A stretch of 24,946 nucleotides of DNA, from positions 1 to 24,946 of IMG/VR virus record IMGVR_UViG_3300030110_005329; one strand, written 5' to 3'. Positions 18,758 to 24,415 of this stretch are shown one piece after another (positions within the stretch are counted from its first letter, which is position 1; the number at the start of each line of letters is the position of its first letter). This stretch comes from a virus. The notes beneath the pieces are model-generated. The model was not told the DNA's origin. It ran no database searches and saw only the letters and a program-made list of their open reading frames with translations. Both the position numbers and the translations under genes were made by a program.

Positions 18758-18962
18758 GCGTCCTCCTTTCTTTTTTGTAGATCGCTTTCGCTCTCTGGAT
18801 TAATAAACTATTGACTTGCGGGCTTGCTGTTTCTTTTGGGTTCCAAAACTTTGTTTGGCCCGTCTCGTGATCTATCTCAAATCGTATGTTGCCACGTCCG
18901 AAACCAAGATAAACCACTCCCCCATTGTCTGAGGTAAAATTAACTTTTGCACCATTACTCAT
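18738..18962 (-). CDS. Small hypothetical protein
   Basis: A 74-aa protein starting MSNGAKVNFTSDNGGVVYLG. The first half looks like a small beta fold (VVYLGFGRGNIRFEIDHETG) and the second like a basic helix (LLIQRAKAIYKKERRTHDKN). The start at 18962 is set by an 8-base overlap with the previous stop (ATGAGTAA) and an AAGGAGA site upstream. Not recognised. Confidence 0.55.
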   Translation of the reverse strand: MSNGAKVNFTSDNGGVVYLGFGRGNIRFEIDHETGQTKFWNPKETASPQVNSLLIQRAKAIYKKERRTHDKNMA

Positions 18963-19161
18963 CGCTTTTCTCCTTTTTGTAAGCACAAATTAAAAAATTG
19001 TAGCCTTCTGCATCGGAGTCAAACCCAATCAACTCACTCAATATTGTTGGTATGTTTGCTTTATGTGAGTCAGCCAGATCAAAGCCGAACCAAACCCCAT
19101 CGGGCAAAACTTCCCACCCATTATTTTTGAGGTCTTTTTCATTAAAATTAAATTTACTCAT
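18955..19161 (-). CDS. Small hypothetical protein
   Basis: A 68-aa protein starting MSKFNFNEKDLKNNGWEVLP. It contains DGVWFGFDLADSHKANIPTI and an aromatic-rich NFLICAYKKEK. No recognised domain. The ATG lies in the repeated junction sequence GCGATGAGTAA shared by several genes here. Confidence 0.55.
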   Translation of the reverse strand: MSKFNFNEKDLKNNGWEVLPDGVWFGFDLADSHKANIPTILSELIGFDSDAEGYNFLICAYKKEKSDE

Positions 19162-19492
19162 CGCTCGCCTCCTCTATTGACATATAGTTATCGTCTATCG
19201 CTTGAGCTTCATCGTCTTCGGTTTCCTCATTGAATGAGCCAAGCATATCAGCAACATCACCTTGGTCTATCTTATTACTGCTTTCTTTGATTAGCACAGT
19301 TTCCATTATGGCTTCAACCTGATCAACAATGTCTATAAACTCGTCTTGCTTTTCTTCTGTCCTGACTTCGTTTCCGTCTTCGTCAACAACCCATATTGGA
19401 TCGAGCGAGCTGTATTCAAGAATGTAATTGGATAAAGTTGCATAGAGTTCAACCCAATTTTCACTAGATATGATGTTTCTGTTATCACTCAT
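19154..19492 (-). CDS. Acidic hypothetical protein
   Basis: A 112-aa very acidic protein starting MSDNRNIISSENWVELYATL. It has DPIWVVDEDGNEVRTEEKQD, a helix (FIDIVDQVEAIMETVLI) and an acidic end (EETEDDEAQAIDD, then MSIEEASDE). The final EEASDE is encoded by the next gene's ribosome binding site and start region. The start shares one base with the previous stop (TAATG). A DNA-mimic role is possible but not shown. Confidence 0.55.
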   Translation of the reverse strand: MSDNRNIISSENWVELYATLSNYILEYSSLDPIWVVDEDGNEVRTEEKQDEFIDIVDQVEAIMETVLIKESSNKIDQGDVADMLGSFNEETEDDEAQAIDDNYMSIEEASDE

Positions 19493-19686
19493 TACTTGCC
19501 TCCCCAATCATTCCTTGAATAAACACCCAGAAGCTCGTCCATTCTCTGTTGAATAAACTCCATTCTCGGCTCGAATTGTGTGATCCCCAAATCGTCTGCT
19601 TGTTTTGCTGCCTGTACTCTAGCCTGCTCAAACAACTGGCTCTGTACCTTGAGGAAGTGTTGCAGGTTGTCGGTTATTCTACTCAT
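19492..19686 (-). CDS. Small helical hypothetical protein
   Basis: A 64-aa protein starting MSRITDNLQHFLKVQSQLFE, predicted all-helical and Gln-rich (QARVQAAKQADD, FIQQRMDELLGVY), so it may form a coiled-coil oligomer. The start at 19686 lies in the ATGAGTAG overlap with the previous gene, next to GAGGAGG. Function unknown. Confidence 0.55.
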   Translation of the reverse strand: MSRITDNLQHFLKVQSQLFEQARVQAAKQADDLGITQFEPRMEFIQQRMDELLGVYSRNDWGGK

Positions 19687-19969
19687 CACTTGCCTCCTCT
19701 ATCAAAACCCTAATTTCATTTTTTGCGTTTTCCAGACAAGCATCTTCATCCCCCATACAACACAAGTCTTCAGAAATAATTTCCTCGTCTTGGTTATAAA
19801 TTTGGTATCCGTAGTTGCCTATTTCATCGCCACTTAAAATGTCCATGTTTTCTGTCTTTTCATATTCAACAAACTCTGGATCTGGTGTCAGCGAGAACAC
19901 ACTAATTAAATAATCCTTGTGCTGTGCCAAAATTACCCTGTGCGCTCTTTTTATACTTGGTTCACTCAT
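19679..19969 (-). CDS. Acidic hypothetical protein
   Basis: A 96-aa protein starting MSEPSIKRAHRVILAQHKDY. The first part is a probable helix-strand unit (HRVILAQHKDYLISVFSL). The middle is acidic (DILSGDEIGNYGYQIYNQDE) with paired cysteines (DLCCMGDEDAC). It ends in IEEASDE, the same tail as the gene at 19154, because both overlap the same ribosome-binding junction sequence. Not recognised. Confidence 0.55.
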   Translation of the reverse strand: MSEPSIKRAHRVILAQHKDYLISVFSLTPDPEFVEYEKTENMDILSGDEIGNYGYQIYNQDEEIISEDLCCMGDEDACLENAKNEIRVLIEEASDE

Positions 19970-20156
19970 CTCGTTTTTCCCCCTGCTCTAGTTTTAGTCT
20001 GATTGTCATTCTTCCATGACCTGTATCAATCAGTATTCGGTCAATTATTTTGCCCATGTGGTATTCCGTTTCCGTCAACCCCAAAGCATATTTCTCTGTT
20101 TCATCGGCATCTACTAACGCTTTCCAATGAAAGTGTATTTCTTCAGTTAGACTCAT
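19962..20156 (-). CDS. Small hypothetical protein, MSLTEE start type
   Basis: A 64-aa protein starting MSLTEEIHFHWKALVDADET. It contains KYALGLTETEYHMGKIIDRI and a beta-like end (HGRMTIRLKLEQ). Its first 19 bases are identical to the start of the gene at 20323, although the rest differs. Function unknown. Confidence 0.55.
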   Translation of the reverse strand: MSLTEEIHFHWKALVDADETEKYALGLTETEYHMGKIIDRILIDTGHGRMTIRLKLEQGEKRDE

Positions 20157-20323
20157 ATCCTTTCCCCTTCTTCATCAAACAAACCATCGGCTTCTATGTA
20201 GCCACCTTTTGCTTGCTTTAAAATCCATGCAGACCAGTCTTTCTCTATCTCTTTTATATCTTCTTCACTAACGACTAAACTGCCTAAATCCTGTGTGTAA
20301 TATTTTTCTTCAGTTAGACTCAT
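20153..20323 (-). CDS. Small acidic hypothetical protein, MSLTEE start type
   Basis: A 56-aa protein starting MSLTEEKYYTQDLGSLVVSE, with an acidic helix (EDIKEIEKDWSAWILKQA) and the ending DGLFDEEGERI. I start at 20323, where GGGGGAAGGAC precedes ATG and the previous stop overlaps by four bases; the frame stays open six codons further upstream. Function unknown. Confidence 0.55.
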   Translation of the reverse strand: MSLTEEKYYTQDLGSLVVSEEDIKEIEKDWSAWILKQAKGGYIEADGLFDEEGERI

Positions 20324-20496
20324 GTCCTTCCCCCATTCCATATTACAAACGCAAGACAGTTTATAACGAACCCAATTACTATTATAAAAAAGGCTATTGG
20401 CATCATGTCAGTCATATTCCAAAGGAACAAACCACTAGCGACCATGAACCAACCAATCAACGAGGTGATCAAACCTATTATTACTTTATCAAGCAT
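20320..20496 (-). CDS. Small two-span membrane protein
   Basis: A 58-aa protein starting MLDKVIIGLITSLIGWFMVA. Two membrane spans are seen at about 4-22 and 30-51 (AFFIIVIGFVINCLAFVIW), joined by a short loop with NMTDMM. The start at 20496 follows AAAGGGGGAG and overlaps the previous gene by 8 bases. This could be a membrane modifier or holin-like protein; nothing in the neighbourhood supports lysis. Confidence 0.6.
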   Translation of the reverse strand: MLDKVIIGLITSLIGWFMVASGLFLWNMTDMMPIAFFIIVIGFVINCLAFVIWNGGRT

Positions 20497-21100: not shown

Positions 21101-21511
21101 GTGGCTAATCCTGAGACAAATTTCTGGAAACAGGTAAAGAAAAATCTGCCTAAATATCGTTGGGTTAGGATCGAATCTTGGGCAACACAAGGTGTTCCCG
21201 ATCTGTTGGGGTTCACTGAGGAAGGAAGGCTATTCACAATCGAATTGAAAGTAAGCAAAAGTAATCGCATATCTATCTCACCACACCAAATAGCGTTCCA
21301 TGTTGAAAGAGAAGACTGTCCGTGTTTTATCTTGGTCAAGCGGTCCTCGGAGAAGGAACCGAAAAAATCTGAGGTGTTGTTGTATGAGGCAGGGAAGATA
21401 CGAGAGATCAGCGAACAGGGGACAAGGATTAAACCCGTGTTCGCGCTCTCGTATCCCCACAACTGGAAAGAGTTGGAAAATTTTTTGGACAAATCTGTAA
21501 ATAGTTCTTGA
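21101..21511 (+). CDS. VRR-NUC family nuclease
   Basis: A 136-aa single-domain nuclease. RIESWATQGVPDLLGF carries G31xPD34, TIELKVS carries E48 and K50 of the PD-(D/E)XK core, and Q63 is in SPHQIAF. This is the virus-type replication-repair nuclease pattern; relatives act on branched DNA such as Holliday junctions or as nicking enzymes. The GTG start has no visible ribosome binding site, so expression may be low or the start leaderless. It stands alone on the plus strand, divergent from the leftward cluster and convergent with the gene at 21683. Confidence 0.82.
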   Translation: MANPETNFWKQVKKNLPKYRWVRIESWATQGVPDLLGFTEEGRLFTIELKVSKSNRISISPHQIAFHVEREDCPCFILVKRSSEKEPKKSEVLLYEAGKIREISEQGTRIKPVFALSYPHNWKELENFLDKSVNSS

Positions 21512-21514
21512 CCA

Positions 21515-21557
21515 ATGGTGGAAGACGGAAAAAGCGGGACGCCCGTTCTTCCACCAT
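21515..21557. repeat. Stem-junction element, short form
   Basis: ATGGTGGAAGA (21515-21525) pairs perfectly with TCTTCCACCAT (21547-21557). Inside, CGG pairs with CCG past one unpaired base, then GCG-GGA-CGC forms a small hairpin beside an A-rich bulge. It lies between two convergent genes, so a two-way terminator is the simplest role. Its right half is nearly identical to the element at 22346-22408. Confidence 0.65.
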
Positions 21558-21682
21558 CAAAGAAAAACACACACTCGTTGCTCGTTTTTTCAGCATGATT
21601 ATTTTTATTTTTTCTTTGGGAAAGGTGTCCGCGATCCGTTGGGATAAATAGGAATATAACAACGGACCGCGAACCAAGGGCA
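21558..21682. other. Intergenic region between convergent genes
   Basis: 125 bases with no gene seen. It holds the inverted repeat at 21628-21673 and an A/T-rich stretch. Together with the stem-junction element it separates the nuclease gene (+) from the gene at 21683 (-). Confidence 0.4.
21628..21673 (-). terminator. Inverted repeat, probable leftward terminator
   Basis: On the minus strand TTCGCGGTCCGTTG and CAACGGATCGCGGA form a 14-bp stem with two G-U pairs and an 18-base loop. On the plus strand the same positions are A-C mismatches, so the structure favours minus-strand RNA. It follows the leftward gene that ends at 21683. No T-run follows closely. Confidence 0.45.
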
Positions 21683-22273
21683 TTAGATGGCTTCTTGATA
21701 TTCTAATTCTTCGCGGATCTGATCGGAATCCATGTGCCAGTTAAGCAACATATCCCAATCAATGCGAAAGAATTTATAATCTGTATAACCGCCCCGAACA
21801 TCACAACCATTGTGAATAGATAAAGCGATCATATCATTGTCGTAAATGTCACCGACATGAACGAACTGTATGGTTTGGCTCAAATCGCAATCACCATTAT
21901 ATGAATTGATACACTCCACTTCTTGTCCGAATCTCTCGGTCATGTATTCTTCAACGCTTTCCAAATCGTGACCTCTTCCGAGTGGGTTATCAATGAAGTT
22001 GAATTTATCTTCATCTATCCAGTTTTCAAAAGTCATGTTTTCACGCTCTGCAAATTCGCAACTTTCAACCAGATGATGAAACAGCGATTTTTCACAATAT
22101 GGATAGTCTGTGCCTGTGTCTAAAAACTTTTGATATTCTTCTTTTTCAAAATCTTCCAGACTCATCTTCTGGTTGCGTTGCCAGTGTCGGTCGTCATCGC
22201 CTCCGCTGTCTAGCATGTGCGTTCCCGTTGGCTCGGTCAGCATCTCATAGATTATCTGTTTTGTTTGGTTCAT
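21683..22273 (-). CDS. Conserved phage protein of unknown function (HMLDSGG..RHWQRN family)
   Basis: A 196-aa acidic protein starting MNQTKQIIYEMLTEPTGTHM. The segment TGTHMLDSGGDDDRHWQRNQ near the N-terminus is a signature I recall from many phage proteins of unknown function. Later parts have FENWIDEDKFNFIDN, HNGCDVRGGYTDYKFF and a Trp/Asp-rich end. Conserved His, Asp, Arg and Trp residues could form an active or binding site (inference). AAGGAG precedes the ATG, and a perfect TATAAT lies about 45 bases upstream, so it probably has its own promoter. Confidence 0.7.
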   Translation of the reverse strand: MNQTKQIIYEMLTEPTGTHMLDSGGDDDRHWQRNQKMSLEDFEKEEYQKFLDTGTDYPYCEKSLFHHLVESCEFAERENMTFENWIDEDKFNFIDNPLGRGHDLESVEEYMTERFGQEVECINSYNGDCDLSQTIQFVHVGDIYDNDMIALSIHNGCDVRGGYTDYKFFRIDWDMLLNWHMDSDQIREELEYQEAI

Positions 22274-22345
22274 GGTTTTACTCCTTGTTTATAAAAATTA
22301 ACTAACATCTATATTATACATAAATATGGGATACATTTTATACAT

Positions 22346-22408
22346 AATTGATGGTGAAAGAACCCCACGCAGTGGGAAGGCGGAACGCCCGTTCTTTCAC
22401 CATCAATT
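22346..22408. repeat. Cloverleaf-like stem-junction element, long form
   Basis: AATTGATGGTGAAAGAAC (22346-22363) pairs perfectly with 22391-22408, an 18-bp stem. The 27 bases between form two small hairpins, CCCAC-GCA-GTGGG (22364-22376) and GGCG-GAA-CGCC (22379-22389), so the whole is a three-way junction. The last 27 bases of the pattern (22380-22406) match 21534-21560 with two changes. It could be a terminator, a structured RNA or a DNA cruciform site; the sequence alone does not decide. Confidence 0.75.
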
Positions 22409-22432
22409 AAACACCCCCCTCATAAATGAACC

Positions 22433-22448
22433 GAGGCCCGAAGGCCCC
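22433..22448 (-). terminator. UUCG-tetraloop hairpin after a leftward gene pair
   Basis: On the minus strand GGGGCC-TTCG-GGCCTC: six pairs including one G-U, with the very stable C(UUCG)G loop. It is 30 bases past the stop of the gene ending at 22478, so it is a likely terminator or RNA-stabilising hairpin. There is no T-run. Confidence 0.5.
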
Positions 22449-22477
22449 GATCCGCGGACAGTGGTACATGGCCAGAA

Positions 22478-22819
22478 TCATGGAAGAAAAGTCTCATCAA
22501 CTTCGTAGCACCTTCGGCATAACTCAAGTTCAATGCTGCCGACCTTTCGCATCCAACAGGCATCTTCCAAAAACCCACACCAATGACAGGCCTCTTTGCC
22601 TTCGGGTATGGGTAGAGTGTGCTGGGATCCAGTGGCCTTAAATACAACGGATTCAATTTCAAAAGTGTCGGCCATTTCTTCGTTGACCCACCAGGTGAAA
22701 ACAATGTTCTTTACAGCTTCTTCAAGATCTGCGGTGTACAACTCCTCCCCCGTTTTTTTCAACGGGGTTCGGTGGTGACTGTCTGAAAAGATTTTATTTG
22801 TTTTTGTTTCCTTGTTCAT
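22478..22819 (-). CDS. Zinc-ribbon-like hypothetical protein
   Basis: A 113-aa protein starting MNKETKTNKIFSDSHHRTPL. The C-terminal third has two CxxC knuckles, CHWC (78-81) and CRRC (100-103), separated by GFLEDACWMRKVGSIELEL, which suggests a zinc ribbon. The middle (ADLEEAVKNIVFTWWVNEEM) is helical. Zinc ribbons in small phage proteins often bind nucleic acid or host proteins, but the partner is unknown. The ATG overlaps the previous stop (ATGA) after AGGCGG. Confidence 0.65.
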   Translation of the reverse strand: MNKETKTNKIFSDSHHRTPLKKTGEELYTADLEEAVKNIVFTWWVNEEMADTFEIESVVFKATGSQHTLPIPEGKEACHWCGFLEDACWMRKVGSIELELCRRCYEVDETFLP

Positions 22820-23088
22820 ACGGACCGCCTACGCAACAAAGCGCCAAGGTTTTTGCTGTAATGTATATCGAGAGCCGAAGCAAAAGCGTTACCACCACGG
22901 AAGTAATTTGTGGTTTTCTCATAAATGTAGTGGTCTTCTTCCGGAGTTCTCTCGGCTTCGTAAATCTCCATCACATCTTTTTTGCTCCCGTTGTATCGTA
23001 AGCGCTCATACTGGGCGCAGATCTCACCGACCAAGCGGTTTTTCTCTTCTTCGCTTAGTTCAGATTTGTCTAAGATAGATTCAATCAT
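22816..23088 (-). CDS. Small hypothetical protein
   Basis: A 90-aa protein starting MIESILDKSELSEEEKNRLV, helical and charged, with DVMEIYEAERTPEEDHYIYE in the middle and a basic end (LLRRRSV). Not recognised. AGGAGAAA precedes the ATG and a minus-strand TATACT (23120-23125) about 30 bases upstream may be its -10. It begins a two-gene leftward unit with the zinc-ribbon gene. Confidence 0.6.
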   Translation of the reverse strand: MIESILDKSELSEEEKNRLVGEICAQYERLRYNGSKKDVMEIYEAERTPEEDHYIYEKTTNYFRGGNAFASALDIHYSKNLGALLRRRSV

Positions 23089-23143
23089 TTAGTTTCTCCT
23101 ATTAATTAAATGTATATCCAGTATATCATTATTTATGGGAGGG

Positions 23144-23152
23144 TGGTATAAT
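23144..23152 (+). promoter_or_regulatory. Extended -10 promoter
   Basis: TGGTATAAT is a perfect extended -10 (TGn followed by TATAAT), which can work without a -35. It points at the gene starting at 23181, giving a leader of about 20 bases. Confidence 0.6.
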
Positions 23153-23180
23153 TAAAGAGTCAAACAAATAGGAGAACAAC

Positions 23181-23579
23181 ATGACACAAGAATATTATAA
23201 AAAGGACGAAATCAAAGAACACTTTGACGACTTTATCGAAGATTGCGATAAAGAATGGATAGATGAAAACATTGACGATTTGCACCATCACGCATTCAAT
23301 ATGGATTATTTTATCATTGGCTACGCTCGAGCCGAGCGATGGTTAGGTAATCAAGTTTTTAATGTTATTGAAACCATACGAGAATATGAAGATATGCATT
23401 TCGGAGAAGTTACAACAGATTTTTCCAACTCTGAAAAAGTGGTCAATATGTACGCTTACATTGTCGGCGAAGAGGTCGTGCAGGAATGGTTAGAAAATGG
23501 TAGAGAATTAGAGTTGTTATCATCTGACCCAACAGTTTCAGAACTAGAACAAGCGATTATAATAGAGGGGAGATCATGA
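23181..23579 (+). CDS. Conserved phage protein of unknown function
   Basis: A 132-aa acidic protein starting MTQEYYKKDEIKEHFDDFIE. The core DDLHHHAFNMDYFIIGYARA followed by ERWLGNQVF, and later NSEKVVNMYAYIVGEE, matches a pattern I recall from marine phages without known function. The paired His residues and acidic stretch could bind metal (inference). Expression signals are good: an extended -10 and AGGAG six bases before the ATG. Its stop overlaps a 26-codon membrane peptide. Confidence 0.7.
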   Translation: MTQEYYKKDEIKEHFDDFIEDCDKEWIDENIDDLHHHAFNMDYFIIGYARAERWLGNQVFNVIETIREYEDMHFGEVTTDFSNSEKVVNMYAYIVGEEVVQEWLENGRELELLSSDPTVSELEQAIIIEGRS

Positions 23580-23656
23580 TTGACACTGCATTTATAATCG
23601 TCATTGCAATTGCGTTCGTGATTGCAATCCTCGGCATACTCGCCACAATCCGATAA
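23576..23656 (+). CDS. 26-residue single-span membrane peptide
   Basis: MIDTAFIIVIAIAFVIAILG then ILATIR and TAA. The ATG overlaps the previous stop (ATGA), and GGGGAG lies four bases upstream, so coupled translation is likely. The whole peptide is one hydrophobic helix with Asp at the start and Arg at the end. Small phage membrane peptides can act as toxins, pinholins or superinfection factors; none is assigned. Composition and signals argue against chance. Confidence 0.6.
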   Translation: MIDTAFIIVIAIAFVIAILGILATIR

Positions 23657-23665
23657 TCCCCCAAA

Positions 23666-23697
23666 GACATGAGGCACGCGATCGCGTGCCTCATGTC
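23666..23697. repeat. Perfect 32-bp palindrome
   Basis: GACATGAGGCACGCGA followed directly by its exact reverse complement. As RNA it would be a 14-bp stem with a 4-base loop. It lies 10 bases after the membrane peptide gene and may end the upstream transcript, or be a binding site for a dimeric protein. Confidence 0.85.
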
Positions 23698-23699
23698 CA

Positions 23700-23739
23700 T
23701 AACGAAAAGAAGATAGCCCTAACGAAAAGAAGATAGCCT
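23700..23739 (+). repeat. Two tandem 20-bp repeats
   Basis: TAACGAAAAGAAGATAGCCC then TAACGAAAAGAAGATAGCCT: back to back, differing only in the last base. Purine-rich. It resembles a protein-binding iteron pair. Confidence 0.8.
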
Positions 23740-23746
23740 TAATATG

Positions 23747-23838
23747 GGGATCCTATTGGCCTAATTTTGGCGCGAAAGCCCTTGATGGATGGATTATTCC
23801 GATAGGACCCTTGGGCTTGATAATCCATCCATCAAGGG
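23747..23838 (+). ncRNA. Candidate pseudoknot RNA or intertwined inverted repeats
   Basis: Stem 2: 23779-23797 (CCCTTGATGGATGGATTAT) pairs perfectly over 19 bp with 23820-23838. Stem 1: TCCTATTGG (23751-23759) pairs with CCGATAGGA (23799-23807), extended by GGG (23747-23749) with CCC (23808-23810) past one unpaired A; it contains one G-U. The 3' half of stem 1 lies within the loop of stem 2, and one base separates the stems, which is H-type pseudoknot order. Whether it is transcribed is unknown; as DNA it would be two overlapping dyads. Confidence 0.45.
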
Positions 23839-23888
23839 GAAAGATCGAGACATAAATTCTCTGGTGAAATAATTTGGCACTTTTTTGT

Positions 23889-23935
23889 TAGGAGTCCCTA
23901 CCCAAAAAATTTTATATTTTTTTCTAGGAGTCCCT
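23889..23935 (+). repeat. Direct repeat TAGGAGTCCCT, two copies
   Basis: Copies at 23889-23899 and 23925-23935, 36 bases apart, each followed by a C-rich stretch, flanking an A/T-only run. They lie just upstream of the HNH gene. Confidence 0.6.
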
Positions 23936-23968
23936 GGTCCCCGGAAAAATTTGTGTATACTAAAAAAT

Positions 23969-24415
23969 ATGGCAAAAACGTGCATTACTTGTAATCGATC
24001 CCTGTCAAAAACGGAATACACCAAAAACCGTAATGTCTGTAAACGCTGTACCTCTTTTCAAAGAAACGTTGCAAGGAACCACACACCGGAATCCTACATC
24101 ACAATTGTTTACAACAAGCTGAAAAGCGCAAGAGTAGACATGGAGTGGGACATTGATTTGGACCACATTAAAACTCTTTGGCAAAAGCAAGACGGACGTT
24201 GTGCCCTGTCCGGCGTATTTATGACGTGGCACGGAGGCGAAGGTCGACAAGATTTGAACGCCAGTATTGATAGAAAAGATCCCACAAAAGGGTATATAAT
24301 AGGCAACGTTCAATTAGTGACGCAACGAATAAACATAATGAAACACACGCTGGGAGAGGGAGAACTCTACTGGTGGTGCAAAAACGTAGTACACGACAAA
24401 GAAAATGCCGATTAA
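23969..24415 (+). CDS. HNH endonuclease
   Basis: A 148-aa protein. The N-terminus has a zinc knuckle pair, CITC (5-8) and CKRC (24-27). The HNH core is DGRCALSG, then NASIDRKDPTKGYIIGNVQL followed by VTQRINIMK. HNH enzymes nick or cut DNA; many phage copies are mobile (homing), while others next to terminase genes help cut cos sites. I start at the ATG before AKTCITC because the frame upstream reads through non-coding repeats. There is no ribosome binding site, but TATACT lies 7 bases before the ATG, so a leaderless transcript is possible. It overlaps the next gene by 11 bases. Confidence 0.85.
   Translation: MAKTCITCNRSLSKTEYTKNRNVCKRCTSFQRNVARNHTPESYITIVYNKLKSARVDMEWDIDLDHIKTLWQKQDGRCALSGVFMTWHGGEGRQDLNASIDRKDPTKGYIIGNVQLVTQRINIMKHTLGEGELYWWCKNVVHDKENAD

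Follow-up and report, generated by a model that had tools for sequence, protein, structure and literature searches.

The palindromic elements e1 and e2 are probably parts of intergenic regulatory modules that bound exchangeable short transcription units. They are found in a single virus record of 24,946 bases, which was analyzed over its whole length and is called the window herein. Judging from the comparison with related loci, the modules would form a hypervariable array in marine phages that are distantly related to HTVC023P-type pelagiphages. The array is real and is neither a chance structure nor a transposon. A VRR-NUC-like gene borders it on the left, and an endonuclease-VII-like/terminase block on the right (Table 1). 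As far as homologous DNA of relatives records it, genes have been replaced, lost, inverted, or moved around modules that stay fixed. The nearest named phages by the DNA polymerase of the window are 023Pt_psg01, DSL-LC04, HTVC023P, and HTVC027P, and the same four are nearest by the terminase of a sister locus.

Table 1. Features of the array and its borders in window coordinates (WIN, window).
Feature	Position	Strand	Description
VRR-NUC-like/Holliday-junction-resolvase-like gene	21101–21511	+	136 aa; matches phrog_2165, phrog_93, phrog_5702; left array border
e2	21515–21557	.	arms 21515–21525/21547–21557; conserved bulged T (21546); single inner stem
196-aa gene	21683–22273	-	phrog_11344; cargo of the window between e2 and e1
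Conserved intergenic e1 module	22278–22477	-	promoter region, e1, and UUCG hairpin; about 200 bp
TATAAT (−10-like)	22313–22318	-	between e1 and the 196-aa gene; kept in WIN, L060, L059, L061; TATACT in L063
e1	22345–22409	.	perfect 19-bp arms 22345–22363/22391–22409; 27 nt between
Inner hairpins of e1	22364–22376 and 22379–22389		CCCAC-GCA-GTGGG and GGCG-GAA-CGCC
UUCG hairpin	22432–22449	-	after the 113-aa stop codon; CUCG loop in some relatives; weak U-rich tail, terminator-like
113-aa gene	22478–22819	-	cargo right of e1; other genes in this slot in relatives
90-aa gene, family F43	22816–23088	-	cargo
Second conserved intergenic module	23090–23192	.	divergent promoter region; 75–94% identical in relatives with other neighbors
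132-aa gene, F14	23181–23579	+	phrog_10208
e3a	23666–23697	.	palindrome; 14-bp arms; GATC loop
e3b	23779–23838	.	palindrome; 19-bp arms
HNH/endonuclease-VII-like gene	23885–24415	+	phrog_3322, phrog_1035; right array border; precedes the terminase large subunit gene

Palindromes of the window

The element e1 is situated between two minus-strand genes and upstream of the 196-aa gene. Its arms are one pair longer than the 18-bp stem that an earlier note on this DNA had described; the perfection of the stem stands, and the two small hairpins described inside it are both present. The fold of e1 reaches −37.8 kcal/mol on the plus strand (z −8.8) and −39.5 kcal/mol on the minus strand (z −7.8), and none of 200 shuffles folds as well. 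e2 starts 4 nt past the stop codon of the VRR-NUC-like gene in the gap of convergent genes and folds with −24.7 kcal/mol on the plus strand (z −4.6). It is a shorter relative of e1, and the description of both elements as cloverleaf-like holds for e1 with its two inner hairpins but not for e2 with only one inner stem. The reported match of 22380–22406 to 21534–21560 is confirmed with 25 of 27 identical bases, as is the T/C difference that is accompanied by A/G in the opposite arm, whereby pairing is retained.

The palindromes e3a and e3b precede the HNH/endonuclease-VII-like gene and are members of the same array. A different palindrome occupies the place of e3a in L061, L063, L242, and L244, and two other palindromes are found at the place of e3b in L063 and L244. 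With arms of at least 12 and loops below 60, the window contains three perfect palindromes, all within 22345–23838. These comprise 19 12-mer pairs, whereas 200 first-order Markov simulations averaged 0.12 such pairs and reached at most 2. e1 and e2 are not chance structures.

The suggestion that the elements constitute a structured RNA family found no support. At the gathering score, Rfam gave no match in the window, L063, L064, and L070, and a tRNA/tmRNA search returned none. A covariance model built on e1 was run on 38 sources and gave 37 matches with E of 1 or less, a total that includes both strands because the elements are palindromic. All matches below E 0.01 belong to the clade of the window, and the model thus fails to reach the sister clades.

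Gene exchange around fixed modules

Relatives were fetched with the 136-aa VRR-NUC-like protein as bait, which yielded 61 viral loci, including the near-duplicates L064/L065, L067/L068, and L069/L070 and the pairs from the same contigs L059/L048, L060/L052, and L063/L019. Perfect palindromes with arms of at least 13 are present in the corresponding region of 23 loci, most of which have a common arm throughout; 38 loci have none at this arm length. Together with the two-sided arm changes described below, this bears out the earlier expectation of a recurrent family with further covarying copies. The arms are TGATGGTGAAAGAAC in the window clade, AAAAGCGACGAGCC in the L069 clade, and AAGCGACAAG in L064, L066, and L067. 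Eight records were searched whole for AAGCGACRAG, which is nearly confined to the array: its 11 occurrences in a 59,063-base record all lie there, within 3.2 kb, as do 11 of 12 in a 38,852-base record. The arm of the window clade exhibits much the same confinement to the array across six records, one of which had no match. In L074 (7821–7976) and L079, a palindrome with TTTATAAGCAAAAGGTC arms is nested inside a GCGACGAG palindrome at the F15/F13 site.

The corresponding regions of the isolates contain four palindromes with arms of at least 10 (one in 023Pt_psg01, three in HTVC023P, and none in HTVC027P and DSL-LC04). In HTVC023P, a TTGAC-type promoter-like site comes after one of them (L241:5495–5522). 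Hence, the array is not general in the HTVC023P-type group. A DNA search of the nearest phage records with the e2–e1 stretch found nothing. In a term search, the article on HTVC023P-type genomes (PMC9599517) had no mention of palindromes, hairpins, stem-loops, terminators, intergenic sequence, or promoters. Searching the literature by title and start of abstract, we found no description of this array, which is not proof of absence.

Orthologues of e1 are found in six relatives (L052/L060, L059, L061, L063, L242, and L244). The e1 module (WIN 22257/22282–22460/22477) is 78–97% identical in L052, L059, L061, L063, L242, and L244, and its flanking genes are often unrelated between relatives, with homology ending at start and stop codons. 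The islands of homology in pairwise DNA comparison are the VRR-NUC-like gene with e2, the e1 module, the 23090–23192 module, and the e3 module; the genes in between often differ. The slot between e2 and e1 is filled by the 196-aa gene in the window and L052, by F14 in L061, L062, and L244, by two other ORFs in L063, and by short unassigned ORFs only in L059. F14, a plus-strand gene at 23181 in the window, has the other strand orientation between e2 and e1 of these relatives, and its DNA in the window and L244 gives an inverted match of 77.7% identity. The gene at 21683 is exchangeable cargo, since the module is conserved while its flanking genes differ and homology breaks off at their start and stop codons. 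The region is one of gene exchange.

The earlier note considered e1 and e2 as possible termini of a small mobile unit with the 196-aa gene inside. Such a unit, in which the palindromes would be short mobile elements of the MITE or REP type, could account for the third palindrome of L063 (8079–8163), which combines the arms of e1 with an unrelated inside at a new place where the window has no palindrome. However, the positions of e1 and e2 are unchanged when the cargo differs. The 196-aa gene is absent in L059, L061, and L063, where e1 and e2 are both kept, and e1 is kept in L242 and L244 as well. Gene and elements are therefore not missing as a block, and e1 and e2 are not transposon ends. Conversely, L056 (3222–3812) encodes an 89%-identical 196-aa protein adjoining an unrelated terminase and a portal, both from other PHROG families, and the 12-base arm motif of the window clade was not found there; judged by this identity and these neighbors, the gene is a transfer between phage lineages. 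The copies of the palindromes are, moreover, restricted to one region, and a nonsystematic look revealed neither target duplication nor transposase. Mobile elements of this kind are thus a very improbable explanation.

Of 279 homology break edges in the L069 clade, 77% lie within 30 bp of a gene edge versus 34% of random points. Palindromes show no such clustering, with 18% of edges versus 16% of random points within 60 bp. Homologous exchange in the module would place break edges at gene borders, since cargo starts there and homology stops, but such edges are not by themselves proof of this mechanism. Modules within one genome of the sister clade are similar to one another. Homologous recombination in common modules, which have about 200 bp in the window clade, would exchange the genes, and each incoming gene would land beside a ready promoter. 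The slots provide a rule for locating exchangeable accessory genes in metagenomes.

Module architecture and known systems

In gene sense, the sister-clade modules are ordered stop codon, U-tract terminator, palindrome, promoter, and gene. In 28 of 38 tandem modules, a U-tract terminator was called ahead of the palindrome, usually at a distance of 50–135 nt; the remaining 10 without a called terminator include spurious ORFs (L069:6482 and L066:1607) and L064:3626, where a terminator is visible that the finder missed. Hence, termination of the upstream gene does not require the palindrome. A promoter-like site, by consensus match only (at least 9 of 12, within 60 nt after the palindrome), is present in 31 of 45 cases versus 5.7% of 1115 AT-matched controls, with orthologous modules treated as separate cases in this as in the break-edge, terminator, and two-sided-change counts. 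The −35 element is located about 15 to 18 nt past the palindrome in many sister-clade modules. In the window clade, the UUCG hairpin with its weak tail is the counterpart of the upstream hairpin, and the promoter-like region of e1 contains a clear −10 and no clear −35. A rough census of palindrome gaps with imperfect gene calls (n = 63) gave 39 tandem, 21 divergent, and 3 convergent cases. Near-identical contigs were removed by hand before counting. Palindromes with loops >34 and arms ≤13 were left out of the sister-clade arm survey and of the terminator, promoter, and attC counts, except for 55-nt loops, which were kept in the terminator, promoter-like, and attC counts. In L064, L067, and modules of the L069 clade, short palindromes, for example ATATGGGATAATCCCTATAT and TTATGGGACATATGCCATAA, coincide in part with the promoters and may be operators.

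We infer promoter function, the recombination route, and the role of the palindrome. With less certainty, the palindrome may be a bidirectional transcription barrier, either a terminator or an insulator, that isolates promoter–gene units from their neighbors.

A simpler alternative is that the palindromes are ordinary bidirectional terminators and that the surrounding gene turnover is ordinary phage mosaicism unrelated to them. They share a stable stem, an intergenic location, and the frequent position after a stop codon with intrinsic (Rho-independent) terminators. At e2, L064:2989, and the F13/F12 site, they follow directly after stop codons, and the sister-clade arms AAAAGCGACGAGCC..GGCTCGTCGCTTTT with their A/T tract resemble a bidirectional terminator. 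However, there is no clear U-tract after e1 or e2 on either strand, and the sole near match of a terminator scan at e1 is the inner hairpin 22377–22363 with the tail TTCTTTCACC. Genuine U-tract terminators are separate structures in the sister clades, where they precede most palindromes. In addition, divergent genes flank some palindromes, the modules persist beyond the genes that they supposedly terminate, and clades with different arms have a loop motif in common. Ordinary terminators are a possible but rather doubtful explanation.

By analogy with the ESAS of cluster K mycobacteriophages, the palindromes could instead be DNA sites at which a dimeric phage regulator binds paired half-sites and controls the adjacent promoter. 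According to PMC3203893, ESAS are imperfect inverted repeats of ~17 bp with a variable spacer, have a subset of non-structural genes downstream, vary in consensus among subclusters, and adjoin a 13-bp SAS at the start codon. The palindromes described here are likewise inverted repeats that precede some of the genes; their arms are common to the modules of one phage and differ between clades. Their placement between terminator and promoter, the distance to the −35 element, and the near absence of interior half-steps suit a regulator site as well. Perfect arms of 14–25 bp with loops from 3 to about 60 nt would be unusual for an operator, and differing palindromes substitute for each other at the same site, as at e3a and e3b. 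The reading as regulator sites is accordingly considered unlikely. As for membership in ESAS/SAS itself, the arms are perfect here, a promoter and a leader lie between palindrome and gene, and the 13-bp SAS has no match within two mismatches in the window and L070, on which grounds it is rejected.

The preferred reading, regulatory modules that bound exchangeable units, has its closest counterpart in the PeSLs (promoter-early stem-loops), reportedly described for T4-like phages by Arbiol in 2010 and Comeau in 2014; the modules here would work in a similar manner. PeSLs mediate gene shuffling in T4-like phages and have a high density in shuffled regions, as stated in PMC4503421. Both systems join a promoter and a stem-loop into a composite that recurs many times where gene shuffling is intense and bounds the exchanged genes. 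The stem-loop of a PeSL terminates the upstream gene; the position of the palindrome would fit such a role at some sites, but 28 of 38 tandem modules have the separate U-tract terminator before the palindrome that distinguishes the sister clades from PeSLs. Further differences are the perfect palindromes with clade-specific arms and a common loop motif, and the phages themselves, which have an HTVC023P-like terminase and the four nearest phages named above. In the literature found, gene-shuffling promoter–stem-loop cassettes are described for T4-like phages, whereas the array described here belongs to an unrelated phage group.

An array of single genes separated by palindromes with variable loops also calls to mind an integron-like cassette array, in which the palindromes would be attC sites. 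The attC consensus includes the box pair RYYYAAC/GTTRRRY. This pair is present at the ends of 0 of 64 palindromes (0 of 3200 control positions), on which basis an identity with attC is rejected. The stems are perfect and have no extrahelical bases except for the bulge of e2, and the cassettes have their own promoter-like sites and occur in both orientations. In PMC9892861, GTTRRRY is given too, palindromes lie between single-gene cassettes, and phages are known to carry attC arrays; an integron-like origin of the present array nevertheless has next to no probability.

Palindromy of the arms and the loop motif

Ten orthologous sites comprise 750 unchanged, 65 two-sided, 27 G-T, and 56 mismatched arm cells, a count that favors paired cells since the sites were picked for holding palindromes; two sequences were unalignable, and 8 cells have no partner. 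There are 28 distinct two-sided arm changes, including 16 transversions. Unpaired cells are nearly all located at the arm ends; site s3 has an inner exception that is common to three contigs. The arm sequence is clade specific, palindromy is retained, and interior changes are almost all two-sided. RNA stems usually evolve via G-U half-steps. Their scarcity in the interior fits strong selection that acts on both strands as well as a process in which one arm serves as template for its partner, which poses the testable question of what preserves palindromy, selection or copying. As evidence for selection on an RNA structure, covariation is weaker than proposed. On e1 alone, one covarying pair among four distinct sequences is reached by 133 of 500 shuffles and is not significant. 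Over all palindromes, covariation is strong, but the few half-steps inside the arms also fit a DNA-level or arm-templated process.

Such a process can be pictured as follows. The palindromes would extrude cruciforms while the phage replicates, and the border nucleases (VRR-NUC-like and endonuclease-VII-like) would cut or resolve these, which would start recombination in the neighboring module and drive cassette exchange, while copying from arm to arm would keep the arms perfect. Such copying would account for two-sided transversions that lack intermediates. L063 and L086–L088 have no F5, and F34 takes its place in L067 and L077; the presence of VRR-NUC proves nothing for the role of border nucleases, since it served as search bait. 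On balance, this DNA-level process is improbable.

Palindrome loops (1,820 bases) contain the motif GTACCTCG 12 times, whereas 232,559 other bases of 26 loci contain it once. It is present in loops of L063 from the window clade, L064, L087, and the L069 clade despite different arms. Hence, even palindromes with unrelated arms have related loops, and the motif may be common to them through descent. The inner CGTTCCGCCTT of e1 is only weakly like GTACCTCG and carries no weight in the argument.

Several further observations concern the borders of the array. The product of the left border gene, which we take to be VRR-NUC-like, has no match in Pfam. It is matched by a gene of DSL-LC04 (L240, OR003939.1 19130–19963) that is labeled “terminase small subunit,” a label that is probably wrong or transferred. 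Toward the right border, a ~19-nt unit (TAACGAAAAGAAGATAGCC) is present twice in tandem at 23701–23742 and was not seen doubled in L059, L060, and L061. Ahead of the endonuclease/terminase block, TTGGCAC-N5-TTGTT (23873–23889) is kept in the window, L060, L059, and L061, with TTGGCAT in L063; it is similar to a −24/−12 element of sigma-54. AGGAGTCCC is present twice at 23887–23940 ahead of the endonuclease gene and again just ahead of the corresponding gene in L070, L074–L076, L078, and L086, and its sequence resembles an extended ribosome-binding site. Outside the array, at 18955–19702 and 20136–20334, several neighboring proteins encoded on the minus strand have (I)EEASDE as their C-terminus or MSLTEE as their N-terminus. 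The junction repeats of these regions have 23–30 nt and 74–93% identity, which looks like exchange at start/stop junctions without palindromes.
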